In this document: positions 7,551 to 32,893 of the stretch, piece by piece
Layout: each line of letters begins with the position of its first letter
How positions within the stretch are numbered: the stretch's first letter is position 1
DNA from: Chloroflexota bacterium
Lineage (GTDB): Bacteria; Chloroflexota; Anaerolineae; Anaerolineales; UBA11858
DNA: 32,893 bases
Reading direction: 5' to 3'
Assembly (NCBI GenBank): GCA_003648195.1
Contig: QMOK01000005.1
Location: forward strand, 1-32,893
The notes under the pieces: model-generated
Seen by the model: only the letters and a program-made list of their open reading frames with translations
The model's database searches: none
Told to the model about the DNA's origin: nothing
Made by a program: the position numbers and the translations under genes

Positions 7551-7571
7551 GTTAAAATCTCCATTGCAAAA

Positions 7572-8537: not shown

Positions 8538-8567
8538 AAGATATACCTTTAATTGCCGTAATCACGC

Positions 8568-9959: not shown

Positions 9960-10004
9960 TTTCTCACTTTCCTAAAATCCACTAATAAAGATTGGAATTT
10001 GCAT

Positions 10005-11237
10005 TCATCCTTCAAGTTGTCCAATATCATCAAATTCTGCCAAACTTTCTCGTATAACTTCGGTTAGCTTCAACATTCCTTCGCCAACAGTACGTGCTTT
10101 TTTTACGTCCATCATAAATGGAACCCCTCGGTTCACCGAAGGTATTACAACGCGCGGATCTTCTGGAATCACGACAGTAATTGCTTGATTTAAATTTTCG
10201 CCCACTCTTTCAGCGGTGATCGCTATTCTCTTATCGTAACGGCTCATAACTAGCACAATCCGCTTTTTGTTGATTCCAAGAGCTTCCAATAAGCCAAGCA
10301 TAATTCGTGAATTATTGATAGCGGGAATCCCTTGTGTGGTCAAAAGAACAAACACATCACTATTTTCAATTGTTTCTAGGGTAATGTCTGAAAGTCCAGA
10401 AGCAGTATCAACAATGACGTAAGTATAGAGTCTTTTGAGGTAATTTAATACTTTCGCAAATTGCTTCCCATCAACCGTCTCTGCATCTTCTGGATGAGAG
10501 GGTGCGGCTAAAATATCAACCCCAGAAGCGTTATGGTGAATCATCACCTCTCCAAAGATATCTGGGTCTAACTCATCTGCTCTGGGAGTCAAATCTACAA
10601 CACTGTTTCGACTTCGTTCATTGAAAAATACAGCCACATCGCCAAATTGCAGACTGGCATCTACAAGTGCGACCGGGGTTTCTGCATTTTGCAAAGCTAC
10701 CGCTAAGTTAGCCGCTACAGTAGTAGTTCCAACGCCACCTTTGGGGCTAAAAATAGTGATAATATTTCCATTAGAACCCGATTGCATTGCAATGCTTGAC
10801 GCATCTAGCCGCCCAGTTTGTACAGCAACTTGCCGTGATATTTTTTCTTTCTCGAGCTGGGCTCGTTGCCCAGCTCGTCTAATAGCTGAAACTAGCTCAT
10901 CGCCCTTGGGAGGTTTGGTGAGAAAGTCGCGTGCGCCTGCCAACATGGCTCTACGCATGTAATTAGCATCACCTTGAACTGAGAGAATAACAATCTGGGT
11001 ACAAGGGAACTTCTCTTGGATTATCTCAGTGGCTCTAATGCCGTCTATATCTGGCATGTTTATATCCATTAGCACCACATCTGGCTGAAGCGTTCCTACC
11101 ATCTTTATTCCTTCTCGCCCAGCCCGAGCGGTGCCTAGGACTTCAATATCGCTTTCAAATTGCAATAGCTTACTTAGCCCTTGGCGGGTCTCTGCAACGT
11201 CGTCAACTATGATTATCGTAAATTTTTCTTTTGGCAT
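10005..11237 (-). CDS. cpaE: CpaE/TadZ-like protein with N-terminal receiver domain
   Basis: This 410-residue fusion joins a response-regulator receiver domain (about 6-125) to a MinD/ParA-like ATPase (about 157-400). The receiver keeps all key residues: Asp12/Asp13, phosphoacceptor Asp58 in VLMDINMPD, Ser86 and Lys108 in the TKPP turn. The ATPase has the deviant Walker A SPKGGVGTTT (164-173) with its signature Lys. In Caulobacter-type systems CpaE places the pilus machinery at the cell pole, and many CpaE proteins have a degenerate receiver; here it looks phosphorylatable. Gaps are 3 bases to cpaB and 45 to tadA. The obvious kinase candidate is the DegS-like protein at 13131-14192. Confidence 0.9.
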   Translation of the reverse strand: MPKEKFTIIIVDDVAETRQGLSKLLQFESDIEVLGTARAGREGIKMVGTLQPDVVLMDINMPDIDGIRATEIIQEKFPCTQIVILSVQGDANYMRRAMLAGARDFLTKPPKGDELVSAIRRAGQRAQLEKEKISRQVAVQTGRLDASSIAMQSGSNGNIITIFSPKGGVGTTTVAANLAVALQNAETPVALVDASLQFGDVAVFFNERSRNSVVDLTPRADELDPDIFGEVMIHHNASGVDILAAPSHPEDAETVDGKQFAKVLNYLKRLYTYVIVDTASGLSDITLETIENSDVFVLLTTQGIPAINNSRIMLGLLEALGINKKRIVLVMSRYDKRIAITAERVGENLNQAITVVIPEDPRVVIPSVNRGVPFMMDVKKARTVGEGMLKLTEVIRESLAEFDDIGQLEG

Positions 11238-11240
11238 GTT

Positions 11241-12410
11241 TTATTGTTGTGGAGTTGGAGTAGGTTGTTTCTCTGTAGGCAGCTCTACTTCGTCTAATCG
11301 CGGAGCAAAACCATAAGGCAATTTAGCGGGCACGGGGATAGAATAACTATCCAAGAAGTATTGCATTGTAACTGTTTGGGTGTCAAGCACTGTATCATCA
11401 CCTGCCGAACGAAGGGCCAGTGTTAAATCCACACCACTATTTAATAAGTAGGTGAGGTTGATGGCTTCTTGAGAAGTAACGATCAAAGTAATAAGATCAG
11501 GAGCTTCTGGTTTTTCTGGTTCTATTGCACCTGTTTCATTACTTCCTACTAGTTGGGCTTCTGCAGGAATTGTTGTTGGTGTTGCTTCAACGCCAGGCAC
11601 TTCTTCAACTTCAGCCCATGGGAATTCGCCCACATGTAAAACTTGCGCGCGGGGGATAATGATTTGCACAGCTAAACGAGACCGTTGTGCCTCTGAGGGA
11701 GTGGTGTAGAATGCTTCATCTGCGTTGGCATCATCAACCCGTCCCCCTGTAACACTCTTTTGTTCTAGCAAAAGCTCTTTCCATAAATCAAGAAACGCCA
11801 CAGCTAGAGCAGCATCCTCGCCTTCACCGCCCATACCTAAAATACTCGTTGGGGCGTAAGTCAACATAGATGCGTTAGGAAGAATAGTATTAGGGAAAAT
11901 GGTCTGAAACTCGCTGTCAATATCGACAAATTCCATAGAGGCCATAACCATCACATCATCTCCGGGCTTTAACGCATACGCTACACTAGAAAGCCGGTTT
12001 ATGGGAATTGTCATAGCAACCATGCCTTTAGGAATCGACAAGGAGGCTAATGAACCTCTGGCCGAAAGTTGTGTCGCGCTATCTGCTAACATGTTCACAG
12101 TCAGTGGAATGCCGCTATCAAGGTCAAATCGAGCTTGATAGCCAACAACTTCAGCTATATCGCTAAACATGCCTTCAATGAATAAGTCTTGAGCTATAGG
12201 AATAGTTCCCAAAACCGTTTCGTCTAAAACTGTGCCGAGAGGTGTTTTCTGGGTAATTACCACAACATTAACAGTAACGGGAGTAGCCACCGGCTGATTA
12301 GCCGAATCCGATTTGCCGCCTGAAAAATATCTTTGATAAGCAACAACCCCTCCCGCTCCCAATAAAATAACGATCAAAATCAAATATAGAGCAACTCGTC
12401 CACGGCGCAT
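11241..12410 (-). CDS. cpaB: CpaB/RcpC-like pilus assembly protein
   Basis: This 389-residue protein has one N-terminal membrane helix (about 7-25) and an extracytoplasmic remainder. Residues about 47-125 look like the SAF/CpaB domain (TPLGTVLDETVLGTIPI and SGIPLTVNML), followed by the RcpC region (KGMVAMTIPINRLSSVAYALKPGDDVMVMASM, about 140-172). Family members line or support the pilus channel. Near residues 275-310 there is a Pro/Glu/Thr-rich linker, and the end is Pro/Thr/Gln-rich, as often in secreted Chloroflexota proteins. AGGAGG sits 5 bases before ATG 12410. It is the first gene of the tight cpaB-cpaE-tadA-tadB-tadC run. Confidence 0.85.
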   Translation of the reverse strand: MRRGRVALYLILIVILLGAGGVVAYQRYFSGGKSDSANQPVATPVTVNVVVITQKTPLGTVLDETVLGTIPIAQDLFIEGMFSDIAEVVGYQARFDLDSGIPLTVNMLADSATQLSARGSLASLSIPKGMVAMTIPINRLSSVAYALKPGDDVMVMASMEFVDIDSEFQTIFPNTILPNASMLTYAPTSILGMGGEGEDAALAVAFLDLWKELLLEQKSVTGGRVDDANADEAFYTTPSEAQRSRLAVQIIIPRAQVLHVGEFPWAEVEEVPGVEATPTTIPAEAQLVGSNETGAIEPEKPEAPDLITLIVTSQEAINLTYLLNSGVDLTLALRSAGDDTVLDTQTVTMQYFLDSYSIPVPAKLPYGFAPRLDEVELPTEKQPTPTPQQ

Positions 12411-17653: not shown

Positions 17654-18370
17654 TTACAGATAATTCATCATGTAAAACCATCTTGCCCACATCATACACC
17701 AAACAGGCAAAAATACCCATATCGGCAATGTTGCTACAGCAAGTAATGGGGCAATTAAAGATTGAACTGCTGCATATGGAAACAGAAATGGTGAGACAAA
17801 CATCCGATACCGTTTATCTTTAGCAAAAAGCATAGGTATTGCAATTATCCCTAATGGCCAGTAACTCCAATTCCATTTATTTACATTGAATTGAAATAAT
17901 GGTCCCATGGCTTCTTTGCCGGTTATAGAAAAAGGCCACCCCCAGATTGCCCACGCAGTACCCAAAAGAAAAACGATAACTAATAATGAAAAAGGTTGTT
18001 TATAGATTGCGTAAACACCTGCACCTAAATTGGATTGTGGTTTTGATAACATAAAACCTACCGCAAAATATGATGACAAAAGATAAGCCATCAACATTAT
18101 TCCATCAATTTGCCCCATAAACAAATTCCACAAAACTGGAGGACTAAAAATCACCATCAACAAATGAATTAGCGAAAGTCTTAGCATTTTTCCTAATTTA
18201 ATGATCACTAATACAGCCATAAACTCCAATGCAATCACACTTCCGTAAGGGCCAAGTAACCGCAATGGTTGCAACAAAACAAATAGCCATGGCAAATTAA
18301 AAACACCGTATTGCACAATCCAAGGATTTTGAAGTTGCGGCCAAAAATAAGTCAACCAATCATAGAACAT
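17654..18370 (-). CDS. Short GT87-like membrane protein, possibly N-truncated
   Basis: This 238-residue protein of about six helices has GT87-like features: YDWLTYFWPQLQNPW then LPWLFVLLQPLRLLG at the front, NLFMGQIDGIMLMAYLL (about 102-118), and a KPQ motif near residue 131. It lacks the first helix and Asp-containing loop expected in a full enzyme of about 400 residues, so it may be truncated or a reduced family member. ATG 18370 follows the gene ending at 18410 by 39 bases. It lies next to the debris region, which supports decay. Codon use and composition are more AT-rich than in its upstream neighbours. Confidence 0.5.
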   Translation of the reverse strand: MFYDWLTYFWPQLQNPWIVQYGVFNLPWLFVLLQPLRLLGPYGSVIALEFMAVLVIIKLGKMLRLSLIHLLMVIFSPPVLWNLFMGQIDGIMLMAYLLSSYFAVGFMLSKPQSNLGAGVYAIYKQPFSLLVIVFLLGTAWAIWGWPFSITGKEAMGPLFQFNVNKWNWSYWPLGIIAIPMLFAKDKRYRMFVSPFLFPYAAVQSLIAPLLAVATLPIWVFLPVWCMMWARWFYMMNYL

Positions 18371-18409
18371 AAAAAGGCATCATCCATCTTTCTCATACCA
18401 CATCCATAA

Positions 18410-19927
18410 TCACTTCTCAAACACCACAGCCAAATCGTCCTCATAAACCAATTCCCAACCCGCTTCGGAGAAACGACTTAACGCGAAATCGCTGGTTGGC
18501 ACAAGAACCAAGCGAACATTATACTTTTTTAAGATGTCTTGCCAAGCGGCATTGCCCTGCATCACGCTTAAATACTCACCCAACACCTCATCCCCGTACA
18601 AATCTGTGCGGCCATCAACAAAAACGGGATAATCGCGCAGGTGCCAAACTAGGTAGCCGCCCCAATTATAGTCGTTGAACATGTTCCTCTCTGGCCGATT
18701 CTCGTCAATCCACGCCACCGCGTCAACGGGGAAGATTTGTTTTTCTGCTTGATGAACAAACTCCGGTTCGGTCACTTGGATAAGTTTGACGATAGCGGCA
18801 AAACTTAAAAGAACAAGAATAGCGACGTTAATGCTCTGCTGGAGGGTGGGGTTGATGTTTTGCTCTGAGCGTGCGCCAAATTTGGATATTTTATTAACCC
18901 AGGGATATTGACGGGCGAGCCGCTCTTTCCAAGCGGGGAACAAATTTGCGAGGTGGCGGGCCAGTACAGGCGCGGTGACCAAAGCAAAAGGCCCGTAGTT
19001 TCGGCGTGAAACCAGTGCCAAGTAAGCGAAAACGCTCACACTGGCGAGGTCGCTGCCATCCAGCCGGCGTTTGGAGATGCCAACCGAAGCAAAAGTGAGC
19101 AGTAACAGCCAAAGCAATGGCTGCTGGGCGAGTTGATGAAAATCGGGTGAAGCCCATTCAGAGATGAGGCTTTGTAAAACATTGACGCCCACGGTGCGAA
19201 AGGGGATAAACCACACGTCCGGGCCGTTGGGATTGAGTACCACGACAAGGGATCCAGCCAACCCCCACAGTGCGAGCGTCCGTACCTGTTTCCAGGTCAG
19301 AACTTCCTCTCCATCCCAGCCCAACGCCCAATTGCAGACCTCCCCGCCAATCATCGTCCCCACAAGAATTAGCCCTAACACATACCCGCCATGCAAATTA
19401 GACCAAAGTATAAAAATAGGTATCAGCCATCCCAGGCGATTTTTGCCGCGCCATTTGTAAAGGTACAGCAAATATCCAACGAGAGCAAACATTACTAGAG
19501 AGGTAGTTTGCGGGCGGGGGGACCAAACCACAGACGAAACCAGCGCGGCTAAGACAACGACCACCGCGCGGAGAATGAAATTACCTTCTATTTGAAGGTA
19601 GAGCAACCCCATGCTCAACACTGCTAAAAGAGCCACTCCCGCGCTAATAGCCCGATAGCTTCCAATTTGATAGAGGAGATATAAGCCAACCTGTGAGAGC
19701 CAACCATGATATGTCCATGTTGTCCCCTGACGAGTATACGAAAACGAATCTATGGCAGATACTTCACCTGTCTGCCAAGTGGTTTCGCCATCACGCAAAT
19801 GCCACCACATATCGCCGTCTAAAGGAGTGCGGGCGGCCATGGCAAAAACCGAAATTAGTACCACGGCTAAGAACAAACGCTCTACGGTAAACCAAGGTTT
19901 GGTTTTAGGGATTTTAGTACTATTCAT
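18410..19927 (-). CDS. GT-C-like membrane protein with soluble C-terminal domain (paralogue A)
   Basis: This 505-residue protein has about ten helices in residues 15-390 and a soluble tail of about 110 residues. The first loop holds DGDMWWHLRDGE (37-48), an Asp/His loop in the place where GT-C enzymes bind donor phosphate and metal. Later segments are YHGWLSQVGLY, WSNLHGGYVLGL and, in the tail, FNDYNWGGYLVW and VFVDGRTDLYGDE. The same motifs appear in the protein at 24321-25826, so the two are paralogues. I do not recognise a named family; a sugar transferase acting outside the membrane is the likely role. ATG 19927 is 2 bases after the stop of the phosphoesterase-like gene, with no gap for a promoter. 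Confidence 0.65.
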   Translation of the reverse strand: MNSTKIPKTKPWFTVERLFLAVVLISVFAMAARTPLDGDMWWHLRDGETTWQTGEVSAIDSFSYTRQGTTWTYHGWLSQVGLYLLYQIGSYRAISAGVALLAVLSMGLLYLQIEGNFILRAVVVVLAALVSSVVWSPRPQTTSLVMFALVGYLLYLYKWRGKNRLGWLIPIFILWSNLHGGYVLGLILVGTMIGGEVCNWALGWDGEEVLTWKQVRTLALWGLAGSLVVVLNPNGPDVWFIPFRTVGVNVLQSLISEWASPDFHQLAQQPLLWLLLLTFASVGISKRRLDGSDLASVSVFAYLALVSRRNYGPFALVTAPVLARHLANLFPAWKERLARQYPWVNKISKFGARSEQNINPTLQQSINVAILVLLSFAAIVKLIQVTEPEFVHQAEKQIFPVDAVAWIDENRPERNMFNDYNWGGYLVWHLRDYPVFVDGRTDLYGDEVLGEYLSVMQGNAAWQDILKKYNVRLVLVPTSDFALSRFSEAGWELVYEDDLAVVFEK

Positions 19928-19929
19928 AA

Positions 19930-20886
19930 TTATCGCCTTGAATCGTCCAATGGGATGAATTGCAATTTAACGTTTTTAGGGTTGACGGAAATTAAAAGTA
20001 TCAGGTCTTGGGGAGTGTCGCCAATACCGGTTGTGATGGTTGTTAAGTCGGCCTCTTGATATTTTTCGATCTGCGGGGTCAAATTTCCACCCCACGCTCC
20101 TACGTCTCCTGCAAATAAGTAAATCGGCTTTTTCTGAGCTGCAGGCCAAAAAATATCTTCAAGTAATTCATTGTAATTATTAGCAAATATACACGCCCAA
20201 CGATCATTTGGCAACTCAGATTGATTTGTGTTCAGCCGTTGAAATAAATTACTGTCGAAAAAAAGAACTTTGTGCATAAAAACAAAGATTTGAGTAATTT
20301 GCTCGTCTTGAACGGCTTGGTTTATAGTTGCTTCAAGAAAAGTTTTTTGCGTCCCTGAAATTTTACAGCCATCTTGTTCAGTGTCTAAAAAAAGATATTG
20401 CGCGGATCCATATTGAAACGTGAAAAATGTTCTCCCGTAGCGTTGTTCGTAGATATTTCGCTCTTCAACATCATGATTGCCAACAGCGTTAAATATTGGG
20501 AATGTTGTTTGGCTTAAAAATTGCTTTTCAAGAACTTCATAGTTTGCTTGGCTTGCGTGAGGAACTATATCTCCTAACAATATCATCATGCTGGGAGCGA
20601 GCGACTCAAAATAATCTTTGTTATCTAAGATAGTGGCAGCGGGATGTGAATCCTGAGGGCGATGACTCCCGTAAATGTGCCCAGCAACTATGAAGCGATA
20701 TGATTCTGACGCCGGTTGCGCCAAAACGCGCTCATTTAGGCTCACCGCGTTAGGGTCTACAAAGAATTCTTGAGATATTTGGCTTAACGCTTGTTGCTGG
20801 TTCGAGGACGTTTGGCATGACGCCAAAATAAGAATTGTGGCAAAGAAGCAAAGCGTTTTCCTTTTACGCAGCCAAGAAACGTTCAC
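19930..20886 (-). CDS. Metallophosphoesterase-like lipoprotein
   Basis: The start is GTG at 20886, preceded by AGGAA; it lies 2 bases after the CotH stop. The 318-residue protein begins with a lipoprotein signal peptide whose lipobox is LASC (Cys24). A calcineurin-type phosphoesterase fold follows: ILLGDIVPHA (Asp106), AVGNHDVEE (Asn137, His138) and MHKVLF (His205). Two usual metal motifs are changed: the first DxH reads AGHIYG (69-72), and the last GHxH reads AGDVGAW. It may hydrolyse a phosphodiester or phosphate on the outer face of the membrane, or be a degenerate ligand-binding version. Its place directly after a CotH kinase suggests opposing or linked phosphate chemistry. Confidence 0.75.
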   Translation of the reverse strand: MNVSWLRKRKTLCFFATILILASCQTSSNQQQALSQISQEFFVDPNAVSLNERVLAQPASESYRFIVAGHIYGSHRPQDSHPAATILDNKDYFESLAPSMMILLGDIVPHASQANYEVLEKQFLSQTTFPIFNAVGNHDVEERNIYEQRYGRTFFTFQYGSAQYLFLDTEQDGCKISGTQKTFLEATINQAVQDEQITQIFVFMHKVLFFDSNLFQRLNTNQSELPNDRWACIFANNYNELLEDIFWPAAQKKPIYLFAGDVGAWGGNLTPQIEKYQEADLTTITTGIGDTPQDLILLISVNPKNVKLQFIPLDDSRR

Positions 20887-20888
20887 CT

Positions 20889-23621
20889 TTAATTTCCTAA
20901 AATTCCTAAATCATATAGCAAACCAACGTCAAAATCTTGGGATTCCACAATGCTCTCATCAATAATGATTATGCTGCCGGTCTGTGCCAAGGCATAAGTT
21001 TCTGTATTTTGCACACTAAGTTCTTTGGCAATAATTTCTGCTGGCCCGTATTCGGATTTTTTGATATATGCCGCCAAAGCCGCGTGTTCTGCCGCGATAA
21101 TCTCGCTTTGAATAATGAATACGGTAGATAAATCTTTGCTGGCGATGCCGATACCCACCGATTCTATTGTCAGCGCCAGGGCATGAATTTCGCTCTGCTC
21201 CCCGGCGGAGAGAGCTTTATCGGCGATATTTACAAACTTAGATCGCTCAATTTTCAGGACGGAGCCGCTGATGTCTACCGCGTCTCCGCCAATATCATGG
21301 AAACTACATTCCACAATTTCGCCGTGCGTAAAATCTCCATCAAAGGCATCAGAGACCAAGCCGCCAAATTCTGAAAACTCAATCTTATATTCGCTTCGGA
21401 TAATGTTAAGAGCATCTTCCGCCATTGACCCAGTAATAGCGACCGCGGTCAAGTGAACAGGACTCTCGTAAAAGGTGATTCCGCCCGTTAGCATCCACCC
21501 AGAACGCTCACTGCCTGCCGTGTTTTCTATCCGCGCGTATTCCCAAGATGAGGCGTTATCAGCGCCCAGCACAACCACCCCTCCCCAAGACTCTTGCTGC
21601 GATGTAAGCGTGACGGGTTTTTCTTCCGTGCCGAGAATTGTCACCGAAGCAGTGCTTATCAGCAGGGCACCTCGCTCAAAGCGCAGGGTTGTTCCGGGGG
21701 GGATGGTTAATGGCACACCCTCTGGCAAAACCAAATCCCCGGCCACGTCCCAATCGCCAGACTCTACACGCAAACTTTCTCCACCGCCAGCAAGCGATAA
21801 ATAATGATGCAAAGCTAAGGCTTCTGTTATAGAGGGAGCGTTTGGCCTAGCACCCTGCGAGAGAACGGGCGAGGACGCGTAATTTAGCAGCGGAATTTCG
21901 TGTAACTCATCCAGACCTAATATGCGAACCATCGCATAAACATCAAACTCTGCGTTCTCTGAAACAACGTCTAAGCCATTAGGAAAATGAACCACAAAAC
22001 TCGCCGCCGATAAAGATTCCCGCTCTCCCATTGGCCCTTGCCGCAGGGTGGGAACAATCTTATCGGGGAGGATGTATTTCTCGGTTGAGGCTGTAATCAT
22101 CTCTCTCTTGGCCGGTATCGGTTGCCCAGACACCTTAAAACCGATCACCTCAACAGGCAACACCATTAAATTGCTAATATCAAACCTCAAATAATCGCCC
22201 CCTTCGCCCACAGGAAATGAGGTAAATTCATAAACTCCTCGTACCTCCTGAACAGGACGTAATTGTTCACTCAGCATCAATCTCCGATCTTCCAAATCGT
22301 CCCAAGGAGGTTCTAAAACATCGCCAGAATATTCCCAATCCAAAGCTGAACGCAAAAAGTCAAATTCTTCTCGCAACTGGCTTTGAATAGGTTCTAAATA
22401 TTCCTCTCTTGTAACGCGCTCTAGTTCCCGAACGTAAGCCTCTTGAATGGCCGCGTCATCAAAAAGTTGGTCGTCCGCAAAGGGATAAGCCACGCCATCT
22501 CGCATCCACCAATCATCTAGGGGAATAGCGTCATACGCAATCGGCTCCAGCAGACCTGTCACCGGATTATAGTAAAAACGGATATTATGCCAGCGAGTGG
22601 TATGCCCCGCGCCCCATAAATCGCTCAAAGCGTAAAAACGCCCCATCAATTCCACGTCAAAGACGCTAGAAGCTGGCAATTCCCCGCGCTGGAACGTTTG
22701 AAGCAGGCCCACAGCCATCCTCGCCTGAGCAGATAAAGCGGGGTCATCCTTTACGTGTCCGCTTCGGAAAACGCTCACCTCAGAGGTGTTCATATCCGTG
22801 ATTTGAAAAAAGCCGGCGAAAATAGCCTCATCAAGAATCGCATTTCCGCCCGCCTCCATGAAGTTCGCTGTATTCTCCCACATGGGATCTTCTTCAAAGC
22901 GCAGAATAACACCCGGACGCCGCCCCTGGGATTCTAGCAATTCGTCTGAGAAACTCTCTTCAAGCGCGTAAACACCTTTTACATCCCCGTTAAAAACCAC
23001 ATTTACAAACTGATACCTGGGTGATAAGACACCTTCCCGTGCTAGATGTTGGTGAAAGGCCCACTCGTTTAAAAAGTTGCGCGTTTCAGGAGCTTGAATA
23101 GAAAAACGCCGCATGCCCTCTATTTGTCCCTTGTTTTCAACATGGATTCTATAAGACCATTTTTCGCTTTCCAAATGATCAACCCAATCCCCCTTAAGAC
23201 GCATATCAACTTCAAGTGTCTCCCCATCCTTATAGCGGATTTGCGCGGGAACCATATCCTCGTCTGAAGTTAATAAAACGCCTATTCGCAAAGCTTCTTC
23301 GCGTTTCTCTAAAATCTTATAATAGCTTTCATACGGCATATCTATATACAACGTTGGCAAACCGTTTCGTCGATACGAACCAACTTTCACCACCAATCCC
23401 TGAGTAGTTTTAGCCCAAGCCTTATGTCCCCACAAAACCCAACTATAAAGCTGTCCAGAACTATGCGCGAATATTCCCAAGATAAACGCCAGCAATACCA
23501 CCAAGCAAAAAGCTAACGCCCTGAAAAACCTGGAACGCAGCGCAAGACGCAAGTGAGAAATAAAACCAAAAGACTGTGATTTTTTAACTTCATTCTCAAC
23601 CTGTGGCCTGGAAATCTTCAT
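20889..23621 (-). CDS. CotH-kinase family surface protein with beta-helix C-terminus
   Basis: I prefer ATG 23621 (910 residues), 4 bases after the DUF4956 stop, over the in-frame ATG at 23657, which would overlap that gene. There is one membrane anchor (about 32-55). Residues about 75-430 are a CotH-type kinase domain: MRLKGDWVDH and KWSYRIHVENKG, then LSDLW (Asp334), HNIRFYYNP-TG (His345, Asn346), then PIAYDA (Asp364), the metal-binding Asp. After a beta-rich linker, residues about 630-900 repeat short strands typical of a right-handed parallel beta-helix (PPGTTLRFERGALL, SVTILGTEEKPVTL, DAVDISGSVLKIERSKF). CotH enzymes are atypical secretory-pathway kinases that phosphorylate Ser on exported proteins. 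Here it would act at the cell surface on an unknown partner. Confidence 0.8.
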   Translation of the reverse strand: MKISRPQVENEVKKSQSFGFISHLRLALRSRFFRALAFCLVVLLAFILGIFAHSSGQLYSWVLWGHKAWAKTTQGLVVKVGSYRRNGLPTLYIDMPYESYYKILEKREEALRIGVLLTSDEDMVPAQIRYKDGETLEVDMRLKGDWVDHLESEKWSYRIHVENKGQIEGMRRFSIQAPETRNFLNEWAFHQHLAREGVLSPRYQFVNVVFNGDVKGVYALEESFSDELLESQGRRPGVILRFEEDPMWENTANFMEAGGNAILDEAIFAGFFQITDMNTSEVSVFRSGHVKDDPALSAQARMAVGLLQTFQRGELPASSVFDVELMGRFYALSDLWGAGHTTRWHNIRFYYNPVTGLLEPIAYDAIPLDDWWMRDGVAYPFADDQLFDDAAIQEAYVRELERVTREEYLEPIQSQLREEFDFLRSALDWEYSGDVLEPPWDDLEDRRLMLSEQLRPVQEVRGVYEFTSFPVGEGGDYLRFDISNLMVLPVEVIGFKVSGQPIPAKREMITASTEKYILPDKIVPTLRQGPMGERESLSAASFVVHFPNGLDVVSENAEFDVYAMVRILGLDELHEIPLLNYASSPVLSQGARPNAPSITEALALHHYLSLAGGGESLRVESGDWDVAGDLVLPEGVPLTIPPGTTLRFERGALLISTASVTILGTEEKPVTLTSQQESWGGVVVLGADNASSWEYARIENTAGSERSGWMLTGGITFYESPVHLTAVAITGSMAEDALNIIRSEYKIEFSEFGGLVSDAFDGDFTHGEIVECSFHDIGGDAVDISGSVLKIERSKFVNIADKALSAGEQSEIHALALTIESVGIGIASKDLSTVFIIQSEIIAAEHAALAAYIKKSEYGPAEIIAKELSVQNTETYALAQTGSIIIIDESIVESQDFDVGLLYDLGILGN

Positions 23622-23625
23622 AAAT

Positions 23626-24297
23626 TCAGCCCCCCAACAAATTGTTCTGCTCAACAAAACTAAGAGAACTGCCCGGAACTTGCGTTTTTAGAGCATCCAT
23701 AATAGCAATCACTGTGTCTTGTTCTGTAATAGAAAGATAATAGGTAATACTCAAATTGCTCTGACGCGAATCTAAGCGTCTCAAATCCGCTTCGGGAACA
23801 TGTTCCATCAAAACCCTATTAATCTCGGCAAATAATACTTCGTTCTCTTGTTCGGCGTCAACTTCAATGTTCAAATACATGCTATGGCTCTTCTTCCACC
23901 CTAGTTTTAACTTCTGTTGAATAAATAAATACCCAACAATAATAGCCACCGCCAACAAAGTGGGAATCTGTTGGTCAGCGCCCAGCCCCAATCCCAGGCC
24001 AATTGCCAAGAACAAAAAAATCAATTCCTCAGGGTCCTTTATAGCGGTACGAAAACGAACAATAGACAACGCGCCCACCAACCCCAAAGACAAAGCCAGT
24101 GATGATTTCACGACTGAAATAACCAAAATCACAATTAGGGTCAATATAGGCAATAAGGGAGCAAAGCTTGCCCGATTAGAAAGTGACCTTCCATAACGGG
24201 CGTAATACCAGGCAATGAGCAAAGACACCAGAATACCTAAACACAGATTCAATGCCAAAGAAGATAAAGAAAGAGGAGCCGGGGCTGTCAAATCCAT
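23626..24297 (-). CDS. DUF4956 membrane protein
   Basis: This 223-residue protein has four or five helices in residues 12-125 and a soluble C-terminal domain (about 140-220) with an ACT-like beta-alpha pattern. The hallmark GALSIVRFRTAIKDPEELIFLF (about 74-95) identifies DUF4956. In many bacteria DUF4956 genes lie with CotH kinases and VTC-type polyphosphate polymerases; here the CotH gene follows directly but no VTC domain gene is present in the window. Role unknown, perhaps a membrane partner of the kinase. It starts 23 bases after the glycosyltransferase-like gene that ends at 24321. Confidence 0.85.
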   Translation of the reverse strand: MDLTAPAPLSLSSLALNLCLGILVSLLIAWYYARYGRSLSNRASFAPLLPILTLIVILVISVVKSSLALSLGLVGALSIVRFRTAIKDPEELIFLFLAIGLGLGLGADQQIPTLLAVAIIVGYLFIQQKLKLGWKKSHSMYLNIEVDAEQENEVLFAEINRVLMEHVPEADLRRLDSRQSNLSITYYLSITEQDTVIAIMDALKTQVPGSSLSFVEQNNLLGG

Positions 24298-24320
24298 AAC
24301 ATTCTCCTTAAATACACATT

Positions 24321-25826
24321 CTACCGAACAAAAATAATTGCCGTGGCATCCTCGTAGGCAACTTCCCAGGTCAATTCAGCCCGCAAGGCGTCACTCAAAG
24401 CCGAATCTACTGGCATAATCACCCAATCCACGCCATACTGCTCAAGAACATCCTCCCAGCCGTCACCCAGCGTAATCACACGCTCGTATTGGCGGGTGAG
24501 CGTCTCGCCGTAAAAGTCGGTCTGACCATCAATGAATACATTCTGCGCCGGCCATAGGCGGTACAGCAAATACCCGCCCCACGGAAAATAATTAAACATT
24601 TCTCCCTCTGGGGGATATTTCTCCACCCACGCCGCGGCCTGGACGGGAAAGGTGGTGCTAGAAAATTGGTTCCTCGATGAAGACATCGCCCCCTTGTGTA
24701 AGTCGGGGTGGTGACCAATATAAAACGTGAGTGCCACCCCCAAAACGACCAACACCATCCAGTAGCCGCGTCTCAGGTCAGCATCCACGCTCGAAATTCG
24801 CGCCTGCAAATTCTGGAACCACGTAAATTTCCTCTCTTGAATCACATCCCTGGCAAGAGCGGCCAAAATTGGCGCGGATAAAACAGCATAAAGCGGGATG
24901 TTGCGAGTGCTGTACAATCCCATAGCTGTCCACCCAGCCACAAGAAAGAGATGCGCCAAAGGCACACGTGACCGTCTAAGCCCCAGCAACAAAAGCGAAA
25001 GAGCAATTAAGCCCAAAAACGGCCACGTGCTCAAGCTATGAAAATTCGGAGGCAAATATTCCGCTGTGTGCCCCACCAAATAACTGTTTCGCACGTAACC
25101 CACGCTGGTCGCCCAAATATGCCATCCCGCCGGGTTCAAAAGTGACGCCGCCAAGGAGGCGGTTCCGCCTAGCAGCCAGGGTTTCCATCTCTGCCAAGAC
25201 CCCCAGCCTTTTTCTAGCAATTCACCCGCCACATACATCCCCAAGAGCATAAAGCCGGCAATAAAAGCTCCGTGTAAATTGACCCAGAAAAGCATCAGCA
25301 AAGGAAGATTCCACCAACGCCCGCCTTGCCCTTGGCGTAATCGCTCCAATTGACCTGCCCAGAGAACCACAAATAAAATGGTGACCAAATGTGGGCGCGC
25401 CAGCCAATGCAAGCTAGAAGCCGCCGCCGCCGCTAGGGAAAAGCCAAGGGAGAGAAGCACGCCGCCGCTAAGTTTCAAGCTCTGGCGGTAAACGCCCAAA
25501 AAGGTGAGCGCGATGAGCAGAGCACAAACGAAAACCACCCCATCCAGAGCGGCAAGACGATAGAAAACGGCGAAAACCACTTGTACCAGCCATTCGTGCG
25601 GAGTCAAGGATTCTCCCGCCATGGTATGCGAAAACACGTCTTGGGTGGGGATTACGCTTTCTTGCAACATGTACTCCCCCAAAGTGAGATGCCTCCCTAA
25701 ATCTCCATCTATGTTCATTAGACGCGGGCCAAGCGCGATTACACTAAAGAAAATAGCGATAAATAAAACATCCTCTAGGGATGGTAAGAGGTACTGCAAA
25801 AAACGCTCTACGCGAGACGTGCTCAT
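24321..25826 (-). CDS. GT-C-like membrane protein with soluble C-terminal domain (paralogue B)
   Basis: This 501-residue protein is a paralogue of the one at 18410-19927. Shared landmarks in the same order are the first-loop NIDGDLGRHL (38-47), PHEWLVQVVF, WVNLHGAFIAGF, FNYFPWGGYLLYRL and VFIDGQTDFYGE. It has about ten membrane helices followed by a soluble tail of about 110 residues. The ATG at 25826 overlaps the stop of the upstream gene by 4 bases (ATGA), showing translational coupling. Likely a polyprenyl-phosphate-sugar transferase, substrate unknown. The two copies bracket the DUF4956-CotH-phosphoesterase genes. Confidence 0.65.
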   Translation of the reverse strand: MSTSRVERFLQYLLPSLEDVLFIAIFFSVIALGPRLMNIDGDLGRHLTLGEYMLQESVIPTQDVFSHTMAGESLTPHEWLVQVVFAVFYRLAALDGVVFVCALLIALTFLGVYRQSLKLSGGVLLSLGFSLAAAAASSLHWLARPHLVTILFVVLWAGQLERLRQGQGGRWWNLPLLMLFWVNLHGAFIAGFMLLGMYVAGELLEKGWGSWQRWKPWLLGGTASLAASLLNPAGWHIWATSVGYVRNSYLVGHTAEYLPPNFHSLSTWPFLGLIALSLLLLGLRRSRVPLAHLFLVAGWTAMGLYSTRNIPLYAVLSAPILAALARDVIQERKFTWFQNLQARISSVDADLRRGYWMVLVVLGVALTFYIGHHPDLHKGAMSSSRNQFSSTTFPVQAAAWVEKYPPEGEMFNYFPWGGYLLYRLWPAQNVFIDGQTDFYGETLTRQYERVITLGDGWEDVLEQYGVDWVIMPVDSALSDALRAELTWEVAYEDATAIIFVR

Positions 25827-27400
25827 TCTTCCTCCATTTTATGTTTACGGTCAAAATGCCATATTCCCCACAGGCTTGATAAAGCCAGAGCAACGCATGC
25901 CCACGCCCCAGGCGAGTTATCCCCGCGCAAGCGAGCGTGCAGCCACCAAAAATCGATTGTGTTCCGGCGCAAGAACTCGCTTTGGAGCAATTCTACCCCA
26001 TTCTGAACACCCGCGCCCGCCAAAACAAGTTTTTCCATTTGGGAAGTTGCTGCCTTCCAGGTGTTTTTTTGACGATAGGCGGTTGCTAGCTCTAGTGCAG
26101 TAGGCCATTGTTTCGCTAAAGGAGATTTTTCAAGTTGATAAATAGTTTCTTTGTAGGCTTGGGCCTGGTTAGGGTTTTCGGCTAGTTGTGTTGTTAAATA
26201 CCGGCTGTGATCAACTAAAATTGCGGGGAATTGGAGGAAAAAGCCCAATGCGAAGAGGCTCCAAAATATCAGACGGCGCCATTTTATTTGAGTGCTTTCT
26301 AAAAGGGCGCAGAGGGGCAAGTGGCTCACTATCACTACGGGTAACAAAAAACGCGGCCCCCAATTAAAGCCGCCTGTCCAAAAATTGTAAGGGGCGTAGA
26401 AAAGGAAAAATCCCAGCCACAAGCCAATGAGCAACCAAGTTTCGGCGCGGAAGCGTTTATAAAAGATTGCCAAGGCTGCCAGGCTGAGGAGGAGAAGCGG
26501 GGCATACAAAAATACGCCTTTGCCGGGACTAAATAACAAGCCGTATAATCCGTTTAAGATGGGTGTTGTCCAGGCTACTTCCGCGTACCCGGTCGTGAGC
26601 GGAGAGCCAAATCTTTGCCAATTATACAGCCCTGTTGCGCTCAAAGAAAGAAAGCCCGCCACCCCAAACGGGAGAACCGCTTGCCAGCGTTTTTCGGGGG
26701 GCGAAACGGCGACTATGTAAATAAACAAAGCGGGAATAGCTATGGCCGCGCTAAGCCGAAAGAGGAGCATAAGCCCCACGGCAGAGGCGGAAATCCACAG
26801 CCAGCGATTTTCGGTTGTCTGCCGCCAGCGGTAAGCGGCGTAGACCGCTCCTAGAAGGAGGAGCGCCGTGCTCGGTTGCGGGTAAAAGGTTTTTGTGTAA
26901 GGCCAAGCAAAGGATGAGAAAATAGCGCCCAGGGCTGCTACGCGGCTGGTGTTTCGCTGGTAGCCCAGCGTTTCGCCAAAGTGTGCTAACAACGCTCCCA
27001 CCCCAGCTAGGGCAATGGCGTTTAGCCAGGAGACAGCTAGGCGCGCCGTGTCGGTCTTATTTTCGAAAATCGCTCCCCAAACGTTCCCAGCCAGGTAAAG
27101 CGGAATAGCCGCTAAGGATTGTCCCATGCCATATTTGGAGTAGGTTTGCCCGTCCCGCCCCGGAATGGCCGATGTGGTTTCTATAGATTCGTTCTGTCGG
27201 GGGAGAAAAAGCGGGGACTGCGTGCTGGGGATGGTTAACGATTCGCGTCCGACCGCTATCCCTTGCCCGTTGAGCAAATTTTGGGTGACGCGGTACATGG
27301 TCTCTTCGTCTCCGCCTACCAGGTGGCCGCCCGCGCTTAATATCAGCACCGAAAGCAGTAAACTCCAGAAAGCCCAATTAGAAAGTTTCTCCGATTTCAA
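25823..27400 (-). CDS. GT39-like membrane glycosyltransferase
   Basis: The start is TTG at 27400: the frame begins there, AAAAGG lies 9 bases upstream inside the end of the previous gene, and the next ATG would remove the first helix and the catalytic loop. The 525-residue protein has about ten helices. The first loop contains GGDEETMYRVTQNLLNG (about 28-44), the Asp-Glu motif of protein O-mannosyltransferase-like (GT39/PMT_2) enzymes. A long loop with SKYGMGQSLAAIPLYL (about 87-102) follows. The C-terminal region carries an alpha-helical segment (about 395-470). Sugar and acceptor are unknown. It overlaps the next gene by 4 bases. Confidence 0.65.
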   Translation of the reverse strand: MKSEKLSNWAFWSLLLSVLILSAGGHLVGGDEETMYRVTQNLLNGQGIAVGRESLTIPSTQSPLFLPRQNESIETTSAIPGRDGQTYSKYGMGQSLAAIPLYLAGNVWGAIFENKTDTARLAVSWLNAIALAGVGALLAHFGETLGYQRNTSRVAALGAIFSSFAWPYTKTFYPQPSTALLLLGAVYAAYRWRQTTENRWLWISASAVGLMLLFRLSAAIAIPALFIYIVAVSPPEKRWQAVLPFGVAGFLSLSATGLYNWQRFGSPLTTGYAEVAWTTPILNGLYGLLFSPGKGVFLYAPLLLLSLAALAIFYKRFRAETWLLIGLWLGFFLFYAPYNFWTGGFNWGPRFLLPVVIVSHLPLCALLESTQIKWRRLIFWSLFALGFFLQFPAILVDHSRYLTTQLAENPNQAQAYKETIYQLEKSPLAKQWPTALELATAYRQKNTWKAATSQMEKLVLAGAGVQNGVELLQSEFLRRNTIDFWWLHARLRGDNSPGAWACVALALSSLWGIWHFDRKHKMEEE

Positions 27401-27402
27401 TT

Positions 27403-29040
27403 CTATAAACCTTTTGCGTTTAAATCTAACTCAGGGGGTCTTATTATTTCTGAAAGCGCGTAAAAAATGTGATAGTCACCAATTTCCTTTTCCTCCCAGG
27501 TAATTCCATGCGCGGTGAAGTTCTCACGCAGGGCGGCGTTGAGCGCGGGGTGATTGGTGGTGATGTAAGCAACTTCGTCCGCTTGCGCCACCATTTTGTC
27601 GTAGGGCGCGTACCGGTCATCGCGGGGAGTAAACCGAAAATCGCTGTGGTAAGGCAAGCGAGGAATGAAGATTAGTTCTTCTTGGGAAAGGAAGGCCAAG
27701 GGGTAAGCGACCCAATAATTGGTATAACCTCGGTTTATATTTTGCTCTTCGAGAAAAGCGATTAGATCATCCATGTAGTCGTGGTCAACCTGGGCTATGA
27801 CGTCAAATTGGGTAGTGATGCCAGGGGGATATTTGCAGGCCATTTGAATTGTGCCGCCCAAATTAAAAACAAGAATCATTAATAATAATCCCCATGATAA
27901 GATTTTGCTTTTATCAACGTAAGAAATAATCATATCCGCTGCGAAGAGAGCCATGGGAACGGCGAGGGGAACAAAATAGCGGCCTGAAGGATCATTGCCA
28001 AAGGGGGTAAAGATAAAGCCCAAAAACAGCGTGAGCATAACGGCTCCTATTAAACCCACTTTTGCGCGATTGAGCTGTTTAGGATAAATTCGCCGCACGC
28101 TGTACACCATAACGCCGACCCAAAACATGAGCAAAAAGGGCAGCAGCGGAAACATTAGCCAGGTGACGGCCCAGGGGGGGCGCAAGCCAAAAGTTACGGT
28201 ACTTCCTAGTAGAAGTAAATTGAATAATCGTCCAAACGGCTTGAGCAAAGCGGGGACGGCAGTGATATTGGCGATGGCTCCACCGCTTAATTCTGAAATC
28301 ATATCACCCCACCCATGGATAGAAGCATATACCCACCAGGGAGCGGCTCCCACCATCACCCCAGCCAATAATCCGCCCAGGGCTTTTCCCACCTCTAAGC
28401 GTTCCCCACCTTTCCACAATTGCACTATCTTCCACAGCAAATAAAGCCCTGCGGGCAAGCTATAAACCAGCGACAGGCCAAATATCCACCATCCCACGCC
28501 TGCCATCCCGCCCCACAACAACCATCGCCACCAAGGAACGTTTTTTTTGTCTTCTATATTGTTGGCTATACGCAAAGTGCATATTAAAAGCAAGTTGCCC
28601 AATAGCAGGGCTTCGCCGTAGCCGCCCAAAGTAACAGTGGTATATAAAGAAACGTTCACCGTGGGGACAGCCATTAAAAGCGCGGCAATTTTTCCAATCT
28701 CGCGACTACCAAAGGCGATTTTGCCTAATTGAAATGTTGTCACCACCGTGCCCAGATACAATAAACTTTGGACGAAACGCAGCACCCATATTTGTTCGCC
28801 AAATATCCGAAAGCCGAAAGATACCAGTAAGGCATCTAGACTGCCCATGTAGGCCTGCCCGTAGAAAAAGATGGGGAGTTCGCCTTGTGTAATGTGCCGG
28901 GCCATGAGTGCTACCACGGCTTCATCGGCGTTAAATGACAGCACGCCGGAAAGCACCAGCCATGTTTTCATGGCGATTGCCGCAAAAATAGCCAACCAAA
29001 GAATATTTAACTCCAACTGTCCTATTTTTATTTTTCCCAT
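27403..29040 (-). CDS. GT39-like membrane glycosyltransferase, first gene of the envelope operon
   Basis: This 545-residue protein of about ten helices has FNADEAVVALMARHI (about 36-50) in the first extracytoplasmic loop, the DE motif of GT39/PMT_2 enzymes, followed by FFYGQAYMGSLDALL (about 58-72), a segment typical of this group in Chloroflexota. The C-terminal 100 residues are soluble. GGGGAG lies 5 bases before ATG 29040 and a near-consensus promoter lies 60-90 bases upstream. Every gene from here to 18410 is on the same strand with gaps of at most 23 bases, so this appears to lead a long operon. Confidence 0.7.
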   Translation of the reverse strand: MGKIKIGQLELNILWLAIFAAIAMKTWLVLSGVLSFNADEAVVALMARHITQGELPIFFYGQAYMGSLDALLVSFGFRIFGEQIWVLRFVQSLLYLGTVVTTFQLGKIAFGSREIGKIAALLMAVPTVNVSLYTTVTLGGYGEALLLGNLLLICTLRIANNIEDKKNVPWWRWLLWGGMAGVGWWIFGLSLVYSLPAGLYLLWKIVQLWKGGERLEVGKALGGLLAGVMVGAAPWWVYASIHGWGDMISELSGGAIANITAVPALLKPFGRLFNLLLLGSTVTFGLRPPWAVTWLMFPLLPFLLMFWVGVMVYSVRRIYPKQLNRAKVGLIGAVMLTLFLGFIFTPFGNDPSGRYFVPLAVPMALFAADMIISYVDKSKILSWGLLLMILVFNLGGTIQMACKYPPGITTQFDVIAQVDHDYMDDLIAFLEEQNINRGYTNYWVAYPLAFLSQEELIFIPRLPYHSDFRFTPRDDRYAPYDKMVAQADEVAYITTNHPALNAALRENFTAHGITWEEKEIGDYHIFYALSEIIRPPELDLNAKGL

Positions 29041-29098: not shown

Positions 29099-29127
29099 AA
29101 TATAGGCAACTACTTTGGCAATGTCAA
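29099..29127 (-). promoter_or_regulatory. Promoter of the envelope glycosyltransferase operon
   Basis: On the minus strand TTGACA (29122-29127, perfect), 17 bases, TATATT (29099-29104, 5 of 6). It lies at the edge of the dispersed repeat at 29131-29223. The leader to ATG 29040 is about 50 bases. Confidence 0.7.
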
Positions 29128-30834: not shown

Positions 30835-32893
30835 ATGACGAAAATCTCACTTCGCGCTTATAACCAAGAAATAGAGAATATGATTAACGAAAGGCAAATA
30901 GAAGAAGCTATTGCCCACTGTCAACATATTCTAGAAACATTTCCTAAACACATTGGAACATATCGCCTCTTGGGTAAAGCCTACCTAGAAAGTTCCCAGC
31001 ACAGCAATGCAGCCGATATATTCCAGCGCATTCTTTCAGCTATCCCAGATGATTTCGTGTCGCATATTGGAATGAGCATCATCCGTGAAGATGAAGGCAA
31101 TTTCGAAGCCGCAACAGCCCATATGGAAAAAGCCTTTGAAAAACAGCCCTACAATCCCGCTATTCAAGATGAACTCCGCCGCTTATACGGGAAACGGGAT
31201 GGGATGGAACCTCCCAAGGTGCAACTCACTCAAGGCGCGCTAGCACGCATGTATCTCAAAGGCAACCTCGTTCAACAAGGTATAGCAGAACTACGTTCAG
31301 CACTCGCCAAAAACTCAAAACAAATCGATCTCTTAGCCCTGCTGGCCGAAGCGTATATAGAGATAAACAAAAAAAACGAAGCTCTAGAAGTTGCAAGCAC
31401 TATTCTTAAAAAATTTCCGTACAACATCACCGCTAATCGCATCATGACAGAATTACTTTCCGTAAGAGAACACCCTAAAGTCATGAAAGCGTGTCGCCAG
31501 CGTTTATACGCACTTTCCCCTTATCAAATGCACATCTCGGAACACGCTCCTACCGAGGAGCAAGTTCCAGACAGGGCTATCACCCTTACCCAACTAGACT
31601 GGATTGCGGATAGAGAAGCGCAAACCCAAACCTCCGCCAGAGAGAAGCAACCAGACTGGGCAACTTCTATTGGAATAAATATCGAATCTGAAGAAGATGA
31701 AGACCAGCTTCCTTCATGGCTAACGGATGATGCGTCTGAAGGCGCAGAAGAGCAAACATCCGTACATCGAGAACCATTTCCTGGTTCAGAAAAAACCGAC
31801 AAAGAAGAGGAAGACATTATTCCCGATTGGATGCAAGAGGCCGGCTGGGGTGTCTCAACCGACAAAGTTGACGAATCTGAACAAAACTGGTTCAGCGATG
31901 AAGAAGAGGAGGAGGAAAAGCTAACTCCCGCCAACATTCCCGATTGGCTCAGGGAAAAAGAGCCTTCCACAAGCTCAACAGAATCCGCCCAAAAGAACAA
32001 TGACACGATACTAAAAGGCACCGATTGGCTTACCGAACTTGAAGAAGAAGAGCTTCCCGAGTTGTCTGAAATAGACGCAGACATAGCCGATATCCAAGAA
32101 ATCCCTGACTGGTTGAAAGAGTTAGGTGAAGAAGAAGATACTTCGCAACCAAAAGAAGAAATACAAAGTTGGCAAGACCAAGAAAAAGCTGATGAACCTC
32201 CTAGTTGGCTAGCAGATATGGAAGCGGAGCCAGAGGAATCGACATTCATAGAAGAACTAGGGGAAGTCGAAACCGTTGCTCCTGCCGAAAAAACAGAAGA
32301 TATTCCCGAATGGTTATCCGACCTGGAAGGCGAAGAAGAAACCCACGGAACTGTCATGTCTTGGCTTGAAGCAGAAAAAGAACCAGAACCCATTGAAAAT
32401 GACGAACCACCACTAGAAAAAACTGAGGATATCCCCGCGTGGTTATCCGACCTACAAAAGGATGAGAGCTTAGAAGAACCAATGCCATCCATGGAAGAAG
32501 CCGAAACCGTTGCTCCTGCCGAAAAAACAGAAGATATTCCCGAATGGCTATCTGACCTGGAAGGCGAAGAAGAAACCCACGGAACTGTCATGTCTTGGCT
32601 CGAAGCAGAAAAAGAACCAGAACCCATTGAAAATGACGAACCACCACCAGAAGAAGAAGCCGAACCCATCGCAGCCGCCGAAGAAGTTGATGAACTTCCT
32701 GCTTGGTTATCGGACATAAAGGACGAAGAAGAGCTAGAGCCACTTCCAGAAGAAGAAGCCGAACCAGTCACAGCCGCCGAAGAAGTTGATGAGCTTCCCG
32801 CTTGGTTATCGGATATAGAAAAGGAAGAAGAACCAGAACCCATTGAGGCAGCGAGTGAACCTGTAGAAGAAACAGCCTCTGAAATGCCCGACC
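30835..32893 (+). CDS. TPR protein with acidic P-x-W-L repeat tail (3' end missing)
   Basis: The frame is open from ATG 30835 to the right edge (686 codons, no stop). Residues 1 to about 235 are tetratricopeptide-like helical pairs (IEEAIAHCQHILETFPKH, KAYLESSQHSNAADIFQRIL, AEAYIEINKKNEALEVASTIL), usually protein-protein interaction scaffolds. From about residue 250 the protein becomes very acidic and repeats a short motif of the form [DE]-[IL]-P-x-W-[LM]-x-[DE] at least ten times (LPSWLTDD, IPDWLREK, IPDWLKEL, PPSWLADM, IPEWLSDL, IPAWLSDL, LPAWLSDI). A 145-bp block in the tail is duplicated 234 bp apart. No signal peptide or membrane helix is seen, so it is cytoplasmic in this part. The function is not known to me; the tail looks like a multivalent set of binding motifs. 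Confidence 0.8.
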   Translation, partial: MTKISLRAYNQEIENMINERQIEEAIAHCQHILETFPKHIGTYRLLGKAYLESSQHSNAADIFQRILSAIPDDFVSHIGMSIIREDEGNFEAATAHMEKAFEKQPYNPAIQDELRRLYGKRDGMEPPKVQLTQGALARMYLKGNLVQQGIAELRSALAKNSKQIDLLALLAEAYIEINKKNEALEVASTILKKFPYNITANRIMTELLSVREHPKVMKACRQRLYALSPYQMHISEHAPTEEQVPDRAITLTQLDWIADREAQTQTSAREKQPDWATSIGINIESEEDEDQLPSWLTDDASEGAEEQTSVHREPFPGSEKTDKEEEDIIPDWMQEAGWGVSTDKVDESEQNWFSDEEEEEEKLTPANIPDWLREKEPSTSSTESAQKNNDTILKGTDWLTELEEEELPELSEIDADIADIQEIPDWLKELGEEEDTSQPKEEIQSWQDQEKADEPPSWLADMEAEPEESTFIEELGEVETVAPAEKTEDIPEWLSDLEGEEETHGTVMSWLEAEKEPEPIENDEPPLEKTEDIPAWLSDLQKDESLEEPMPSMEEAETVAPAEKTEDIPEWLSDLEGEEETHGTVMSWLEAEKEPEPIENDEPPPEEEAEPIAAAEEVDELPAWLSDIKDEEELEPLPEEEAEPVTAAEEVDELPAWLSDIEKEEEPEPIEAASEPVEETASEMPD
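32269..32647 (+). repeat. Duplicated 145-bp block inside the TPR-repeat gene
   Basis: Bases 32269-32413 and 32503-32647 are identical except at three sites, and all three are synonymous (two Leu codons and one Ser codon). The 234-bp period is 78 codons, so the frame is kept. This looks like a recent in-frame duplication within the acidic tail. Confidence 0.85.

Follow-up and report, generated by a model that had tools for sequence, protein, structure and literature searches.

Evidence that a VTC-less copy of a CotH-DUF4956 cassette lies inserted in an older membrane-protein array of a Chloroflexota bacterium

In contig QMOK01000005.1 of a Chloroflexota bacterium, a gene for a CotH-like protein lies on the minus strand together with a DUF4956 gene and a gene for a phosphoesterase-like lipoprotein, and two paralogous membrane-protein genes (A and B) bracket the three. 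The question raised by this locus is whether the trio belongs with its neighbours or with partners that are absent from it. The window, here, is the whole stretch of 32,893 nt, to which all coordinates refer. Our answer is that the trio (19930-24297) is very probably a displaced copy, without VTC, of a cassette that reads DUF4956 - CotH (with a beta-helix) - VTC - phosphoesterase, inserted between two tandem genes. The five genes concerned are listed below.

24321-25826, minus strand: polytopic membrane protein, GT-C-like paralogue A; 4-base overlap with the preceding gene
23626-24297, minus strand: DUF4956 membrane protein (Pfam PF16316, 1.4e-18); gap of 23 bases after A
20889-23621, minus strand (open reading frame 20889-23657): CotH-like protein with a beta-helix, from Pfam CotH and the predicted structure
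19930-20886, minus strand: calcineurin-like phosphoesterase lipoprotein with lipobox LASC, from the predicted fold and conserved columns; gap of 2 bases after CotH
18410-19927, minus strand: polytopic membrane protein, GT-C-like paralogue B, 30% identical to A; gap of 2 bases after the lipoprotein

A first-pass annotation of this DNA had placed eight closely spaced genes on the minus strand, and a check of the open reading frames (ORFs) of the window found all of them at those coordinates, with a single correction. The CotH ORF as called opens with a TTG codon and overlaps DUF4956; translation probably begins with the ATG at 23621, 4 bases after DUF4956, a start that we prefer because its methionine aligns with that of a second copy in the same genome (C94, see below). 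The annotation had also reported that CotH and DUF4956 occur here without the VTC partner they usually have, and this is borne out by the Pfam matches (CotH, 34.1 bits against a cut-off of 23.8; DUF4956, 68 bits, also over its cut-off), by a six-frame search that found no VTC gene in the window and by the survey of 29 loci described below. Its phosphoesterase-like lipoprotein stands as well, on a Metallophos match just under the Pfam cut-off (19.9 against 21.5) and on the predicted fold, and the 30% identity between A and B agrees with its view of a trio bracketed by paralogues.

When 84,980 species genomes were scanned for the CotH-helix protein, 48 relatives were found, distributed over Chloroflexota, Planctomycetota, Latescibacterota, Omnitrophota, Bacteroidota, Gammaproteobacteria, Dadabacteria and one Pacearchaeota bin. 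Their neighbourhoods, read by hidden Markov model scans of all six frames, reveal a cassette composed of DUF4956 (its first gene), CotH with a C-terminal beta-helix, a VTC polyphosphate polymerase and, often, a calcineurin-like phosphoesterase, which is present in at least six phyla. An adjacent VTC gene was observed in all 29 distinct uncut loci, other than the window, that combine DUF4956 with CotH(beta-helix); the loci that carry this pair without VTC are the window itself and four that are cut by a contig end (L022, L027, L093 and L095). Several further VTC-less cassettes had appeared in a first neighbourhood table in which long antisense ORFs were chosen, and the six-frame rescan removed them. 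The DUF4956-CotH-VTC cassette is, in fact, real and conserved; it is of an uncharacterised kind that was already known, and the window is a variant of it.

The phosphoesterase follows CotH closely. Among 301 genomes from the order to which the window belongs, a profile search gave 15 that are clearly positive for the CotH-helix protein, four further weak beta-helix matches being excluded from this number. (A search across the phylum with the single protein matched its own genome alone, which, given the 15 profile positives, is not a sign of rarity.) The phosphoesterase family is strongly present in 8 of the 301, all of them within the 15 (p = 4e-12), and the association holds when the two genomes that seeded the profile are left out (6 of 6, p = 2e-9). 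It is adjacent in seven of the eight. The survey of neighbourhoods has it adjacent in 12 other distinct cassette loci, from at least four phyla. The closest relative of the window's CotH, in G442 (52-53% identity), belongs to a locus that reads CotH - VTC - phosphoesterase. Flavobacteriales with a lone CotH-helix gene mostly carry a VTC-DUF4956 pair elsewhere in the genome.

The survey also gave some observations of separate interest. Two CotH-helix genes occur in one cassette in G514 (L086), where they flank DUF4956, and in a Chloroflexi bin (L012), where they are in tandem. A complete DUF4956-CotH-VTC cassette lies on a contig binned as Pacearchaeota (L019), by horizontal transfer or through a binning error. 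Halioglobus-type genomes (L048, L050 and L053) have a conserved gene of about 185 aa between VTC and the phosphoesterase.

The genome of the window (3.0 Mb in 327 contigs) contains three DUF4956-CotH pairs. The pair at C31 belongs to a canonical set (VTC - DUF4956 - CotH lipoprotein), whose CotH carries NWD in its catalytic loop; C94 reads DUF4956 - CotH(beta-helix) - VTC, and its CotH is 44-45% identical to that of the window. These are the only two places where a six-frame search of the genome detects VTC, and no second copy of the phosphoesterase was found in it. Thus, the window has CotH, DUF4956 and the phosphoesterase without VTC, C94 has VTC without the phosphoesterase, and the window copy amounts to a natural experiment, a cassette deprived of VTC in a genome that has VTC elsewhere. 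In a tree of CotH proteins, the C94 copy groups with genomes of the same family and the window copy stands apart, at a position that the tree does not resolve exactly, closest to G442 of another family. In G442, VTC sits exactly at the place of the 2-base gap between CotH and the phosphoesterase of the window. The simplest history, whose direction we infer, is that a full cassette was acquired and VTC was then lost.

The flanking genes tell a different story from the trio. The first-pass annotation had counted four GT-C transferases here; the gene at 27403-29040 does pass a glycosyltransferase model (PMT_2), but it is the only one, as 25823-27400 remains under the cut-off of that model and A and B have no Pfam family match and no PDB sequence match. 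With 5-6 transmembrane segments predicted by a crude scan, A and B carry a GT-C label that is unproven. Their family occurs in 207 of the 301 order genomes and is not enriched in those with CotH (8 of 15, p = 0.25), so that of the co-occurrence the annotation had suggested looking for, the lipoprotein's part was found and that of the paralogues was not; nor is any relative of A or B near the cassette loci of at least six phyla. By contrast, the order GTC545 - A - B of the window recurs in three genomes of the same genus (G364, G441 and G329) and in G305 of the order, with GTC430 divergent and upstream in G364 and G441. A and B are separated by 45 bases in G364 and by about 50-80 in G441 and G329, three genomes in which the profile search gave no CotH-helix match, and by about 4.4 kb in the window, a distance that equals the trio. 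Because A and B are direct neighbours in same-genus genomes without the trio, the trio appears to have been inserted between two tandem genes of an older membrane-protein array, and A and B would lie outside the cassette; their wide spread, the lack of enrichment and this adjacency rule them out as cassette members. The G+C content of the trio (0.41-0.475), below that of A (0.525) and B (0.503), fits a foreign origin weakly. Separately, 25823-27400 is a second extra gene, GTC545 being directly beside A in same-genus relatives (checked in G364).

What the cassette does must be approached through its proteins. An AlphaFold2 model of the CotH-helix protein (36 sequences; mean predicted local distance difference test score, pLDDT, 82.6) runs from an N-terminal transmembrane anchor through a kinase-fold domain and a beta-rich region (weakly predicted) to a right-handed beta-helix. 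The kinase-fold domain (approximately residues 87-456) matches the CotH structure 5JD9 (Z 27.4 over 319 residues, root-mean-square deviation 3.0), and the C-terminal helix (approximately 585-899) matches AlgG 4NK8 (Z 27.6 over 277 residues), AlgE and polysaccharide lyases being also among its structural matches. In the catalytic loop, His340, Asn346 and Asp364 are each present in 58 of 59 proteins; the last two are the catalytic-loop Asn and the metal-binding Asp (Asp251) of CotH kinases, both of which are kept. The helix has its own invariant set (D758, D761, D763, D780, D783, S785, D801, K802, E808, K829, D830, K854 and K855), which resembles a conserved binding or catalytic face.

The lipoprotein was modelled with a pLDDT of 80 and matches GpdQ (2ZO9, Z 21.4 over 222 residues) and purple acid phosphatases (Z about 21). 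Its motifs across phyla are xGH, LGD, GNHD, H and GDxG, so the complete set of two-metal ligands (DxH, GD, GNH, H and GHxH) is not there, xGH standing for DxH and GDxG for GHxH. We take one metal to retain its ligands, with Asp in place of His in the fifth motif, and the second metal to have an incomplete set. Neither this protein nor DUF4956 has a sequence match in the PDB. DUF4956 has four predicted transmembrane segments, a soluble C-terminal domain and the conserved core ALSLGLVGALSIVRFR; a profile comparison with MgtC (hhalign) gave E 3e-6 and a probability of 88 over 183 columns, and an MgtC model matched the DUF4956 of C31 at 2.5e-4, under the cut-off. The MgtC family is tied to magnesium and phosphate homeostasis. 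The VTC protein of the cassette is homologous to VTC4 (3G3Q, E 5e-14), with invariant basic-tunnel residues.

Gene sets, synteny, co-occurrence, predicted folds and residue conservation are the observations from which we reason to a donor, a substrate, a direction of phosphate flow and a role of DUF4956 as conduit. In the mechanism that we propose, cytosolic ATP would be turned into polyphosphate by the VTC protein, the MgtC-like DUF4956 would couple this polymer to or across the membrane, and the membrane-anchored CotH domain, outside the cell, would move phosphate onto a surface polymer, presumably a polysaccharide, held by the beta-helix; the phosphoesterase lipoprotein would then trim, reverse or recycle the phosphate. 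Outside the cell, the CotH domain cannot count on ATP. For the window trio, polyphosphate would come from the VTC of the second cassette, on C94, acting in trans. In yeast, the VTC complex makes polyphosphate in the cytosol and links this production to transport through the membrane (PMC9911596). For the spore coat, where CotH obtains its ATP has been stated to be an unanswered question (PMC7821199). The closely maintained pairing, across phyla, of a polyphosphate polymerase, an MgtC-like membrane protein and CotH suggests a direct answer to it, and the trio hints that the outer surface of bacteria may be phosphorylated from exported polyphosphate. As a whole, this mechanism (extracytoplasmic phosphotransfer to a surface polymer, with polyphosphate as a plausible donor) is tentative, possible rather than probable. 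Joined to the identity of the trio, it forms the best overall explanation of the locus, in which we have moderate confidence. A bolder version, in which a His-type CotH phosphotransferase outside the cell marks a helix-held surface polysaccharide with phosphate from exported polyphosphate, a phosphoesterase with an altered metal site erases the mark, and VTC-DUF4956 is the general power supply of bacterial extracytoplasmic kinases, strikes us as quite unlikely.

Several observations weigh against the proposed phosphotransfer. The main threat is the missing catalytic Asp: among the 59 proteins, no conserved Asp in the loop corresponds to Asp228, which is catalytic and essential in B. subtilis (the equivalence with His340 is approximate, as the sequence-profile alignment places the His one column before the Asp), and the CotH domain may be a non-kinase scaffold. 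Activity is putative for every member of this clade, and the AlgG/AlgE-type catalytic His/Tyr set is not seen among the invariant helix columns. Additionally, two motifs of the phosphoesterase are without their canonical metal ligands, the link between DUF4956 and MgtC is a moderate one on the profile evidence, and the window copy, being without a VTC of its own, may belong to a trio that works without polyphosphate.

Other explanations compete with this mechanism. If the CotH-helix protein were no longer a kinase, its CotH fold could serve as a scaffold that binds a ligand or polyphosphate, and the beta-helix could do the catalysis, as a polysaccharide lyase, hydrolase or epimerase, or else act as an adhesin. 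The replaced Asp, the concentration of invariant residues in the helix, which is the densest of the protein, and the match of its fold to polysaccharide-acting enzymes are all in agreement with this. However, the kinase-fold residues R141, K143, E222, N346 and D364 hardly vary across several phyla either, and the filling of the Asp place by a single residue type, His, suggests an active site that was kept rather than one in decay; we consider a non-kinase somewhat unlikely. The cassette could also be a phosphate store or sensor, where VTC-DUF4956 exports or stores polyphosphate that the CotH-helix protein and the phosphoesterase only bind and degrade for phosphate supply. The conserved polymerase, the resemblance of DUF4956 to MgtC and the co-occurrence of phosphoesterase and CotH would fit such a function, but it leaves unexplained both the polysaccharide-type beta-helix and the canonical Asp-type CotH that occurs in the same arrangement at C31, and it seems unlikely.

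The first-pass annotation, for its part, had taken the trio and the flanking transferases as one system in which glycosylation is linked to the phosphorylation of a protein or glycan of the envelope. Seven tightly spaced genes behind a near-consensus promoter do suggest co-transcription, and both parts act at the membrane. Nevertheless, each part occurs independently of the other in related genomes: relatives have the array without the trio, and the trio was found without the transferases, the very observation that the annotation had named as one that would overturn it. With the cassette present in at least six phyla without relatives of A and B, a single system is very improbable, and the apparent link to glycosylation most likely reflects no more than the place into which this copy was inserted. 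The other half of that proposal, phosphorylation or phosphate handling of an envelope polymer, is plausible, and is strengthened somewhat by the polysaccharide-type beta-helix.

Among known systems, the accessory genes of Gram-positive Pel clusters (cotH, polyphosphate polymerase, DUF4956 and DUF4832, linked to an exopolysaccharide locus; PMC7112168) are similar in having a contiguous CotH, polyphosphate polymerase and DUF4956 set, and a regulatory kinase role has been proposed for the cotH group of these loci (PMC7112168). Whereas their CotH has been called an orthologue of the kinase of the spore coat, the one discussed here is of the His type with a C-terminal beta-helix, often has a phosphoesterase partner and no Pel genes, and in the window has no VTC. 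The Bacillus spore-coat kinase CotH (5JD9, 5JDA; PMC7821199) shares the fold of the N-terminal domain, the loop Asn and an Asp of the metal-binding type, but not the His in place of the catalytic Asp, the membrane anchor, the extra beta-rich region or the beta-helix. The mannuronan C5-epimerases AlgG and AlgE and other right-handed beta-helix enzymes acting on polysaccharides have the fold of the helix (Z 26-28) at 11-12% identity, and their epimerase His/Tyr set is replaced here by invariant Asp, Lys and Glu ladders. The polymerase domain is homologous to that of VTC4 in the eukaryotic VTC complex, whose coupling of synthesis to translocation is a model for DUF4956; however, DUF4956 is MgtC-like and not known as a homologue of VTC1, and the bacterial protein is a bare polymerase domain. 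Finally, GpdQ and purple acid phosphatases resemble the lipoprotein over the whole domain (Z about 21) and differ in the two altered motifs, which its family keeps across phyla. No study devoted to CotH together with polyphosphate or VTC turned up in the literature searched, where DUF4956 occurs in 3 of 5.39 million papers and one of the three also mentions CotH. In that literature, the clade defined by His for the catalytic Asp, the beta-helix and the altered phosphoesterase seems to be undescribed.

The remaining features of the array are the following.

29099-29127, minus strand: sigma-70-like promoter TTGACA-17-TATATT, upstream of 29040 (consensus scan, 11/12)
27403-29040, minus strand: PMT_2-family putative GT-C glycosyltransferase at the head of the array (Pfam PF13231, 5.9e-7); directly upstream of A in relatives
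25823-27400, minus strand: LA_3751/LA_3752-like putative glycosyltransferase (NF047440, 2.4e-22, under its cut-off); gap of 2 bases to the preceding gene
17654-18370, minus strand: short polytopic membrane protein with no family match; gap of 39 bases after B

The tightly spaced genes are likely to be co-transcribed, judging from their layout. The single near-consensus promoter of the first-pass annotation is present at 29127-29099, but it is suggestive only, because the scan gives 32 promoter-like sites where shuffled sequences give 17.4. Downstream of the array, at 6600-12410 on the minus strand, are genes of type II secretion/Flp pilus type (two T2SSF, T2SSE, a response-regulator/ParA fusion and RcpC/CpaB). 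At the other end of the window, the Ser-rich ORF at 31524-32843 (minus strand) is an artefact, antisense to a conserved plus-strand protein at 30835-32892 whose beginning is TPR-like and which carries acidic 'IPxWLxxLxxEEE' repeats, with homologues of 40-59% identity in same-genus genomes.

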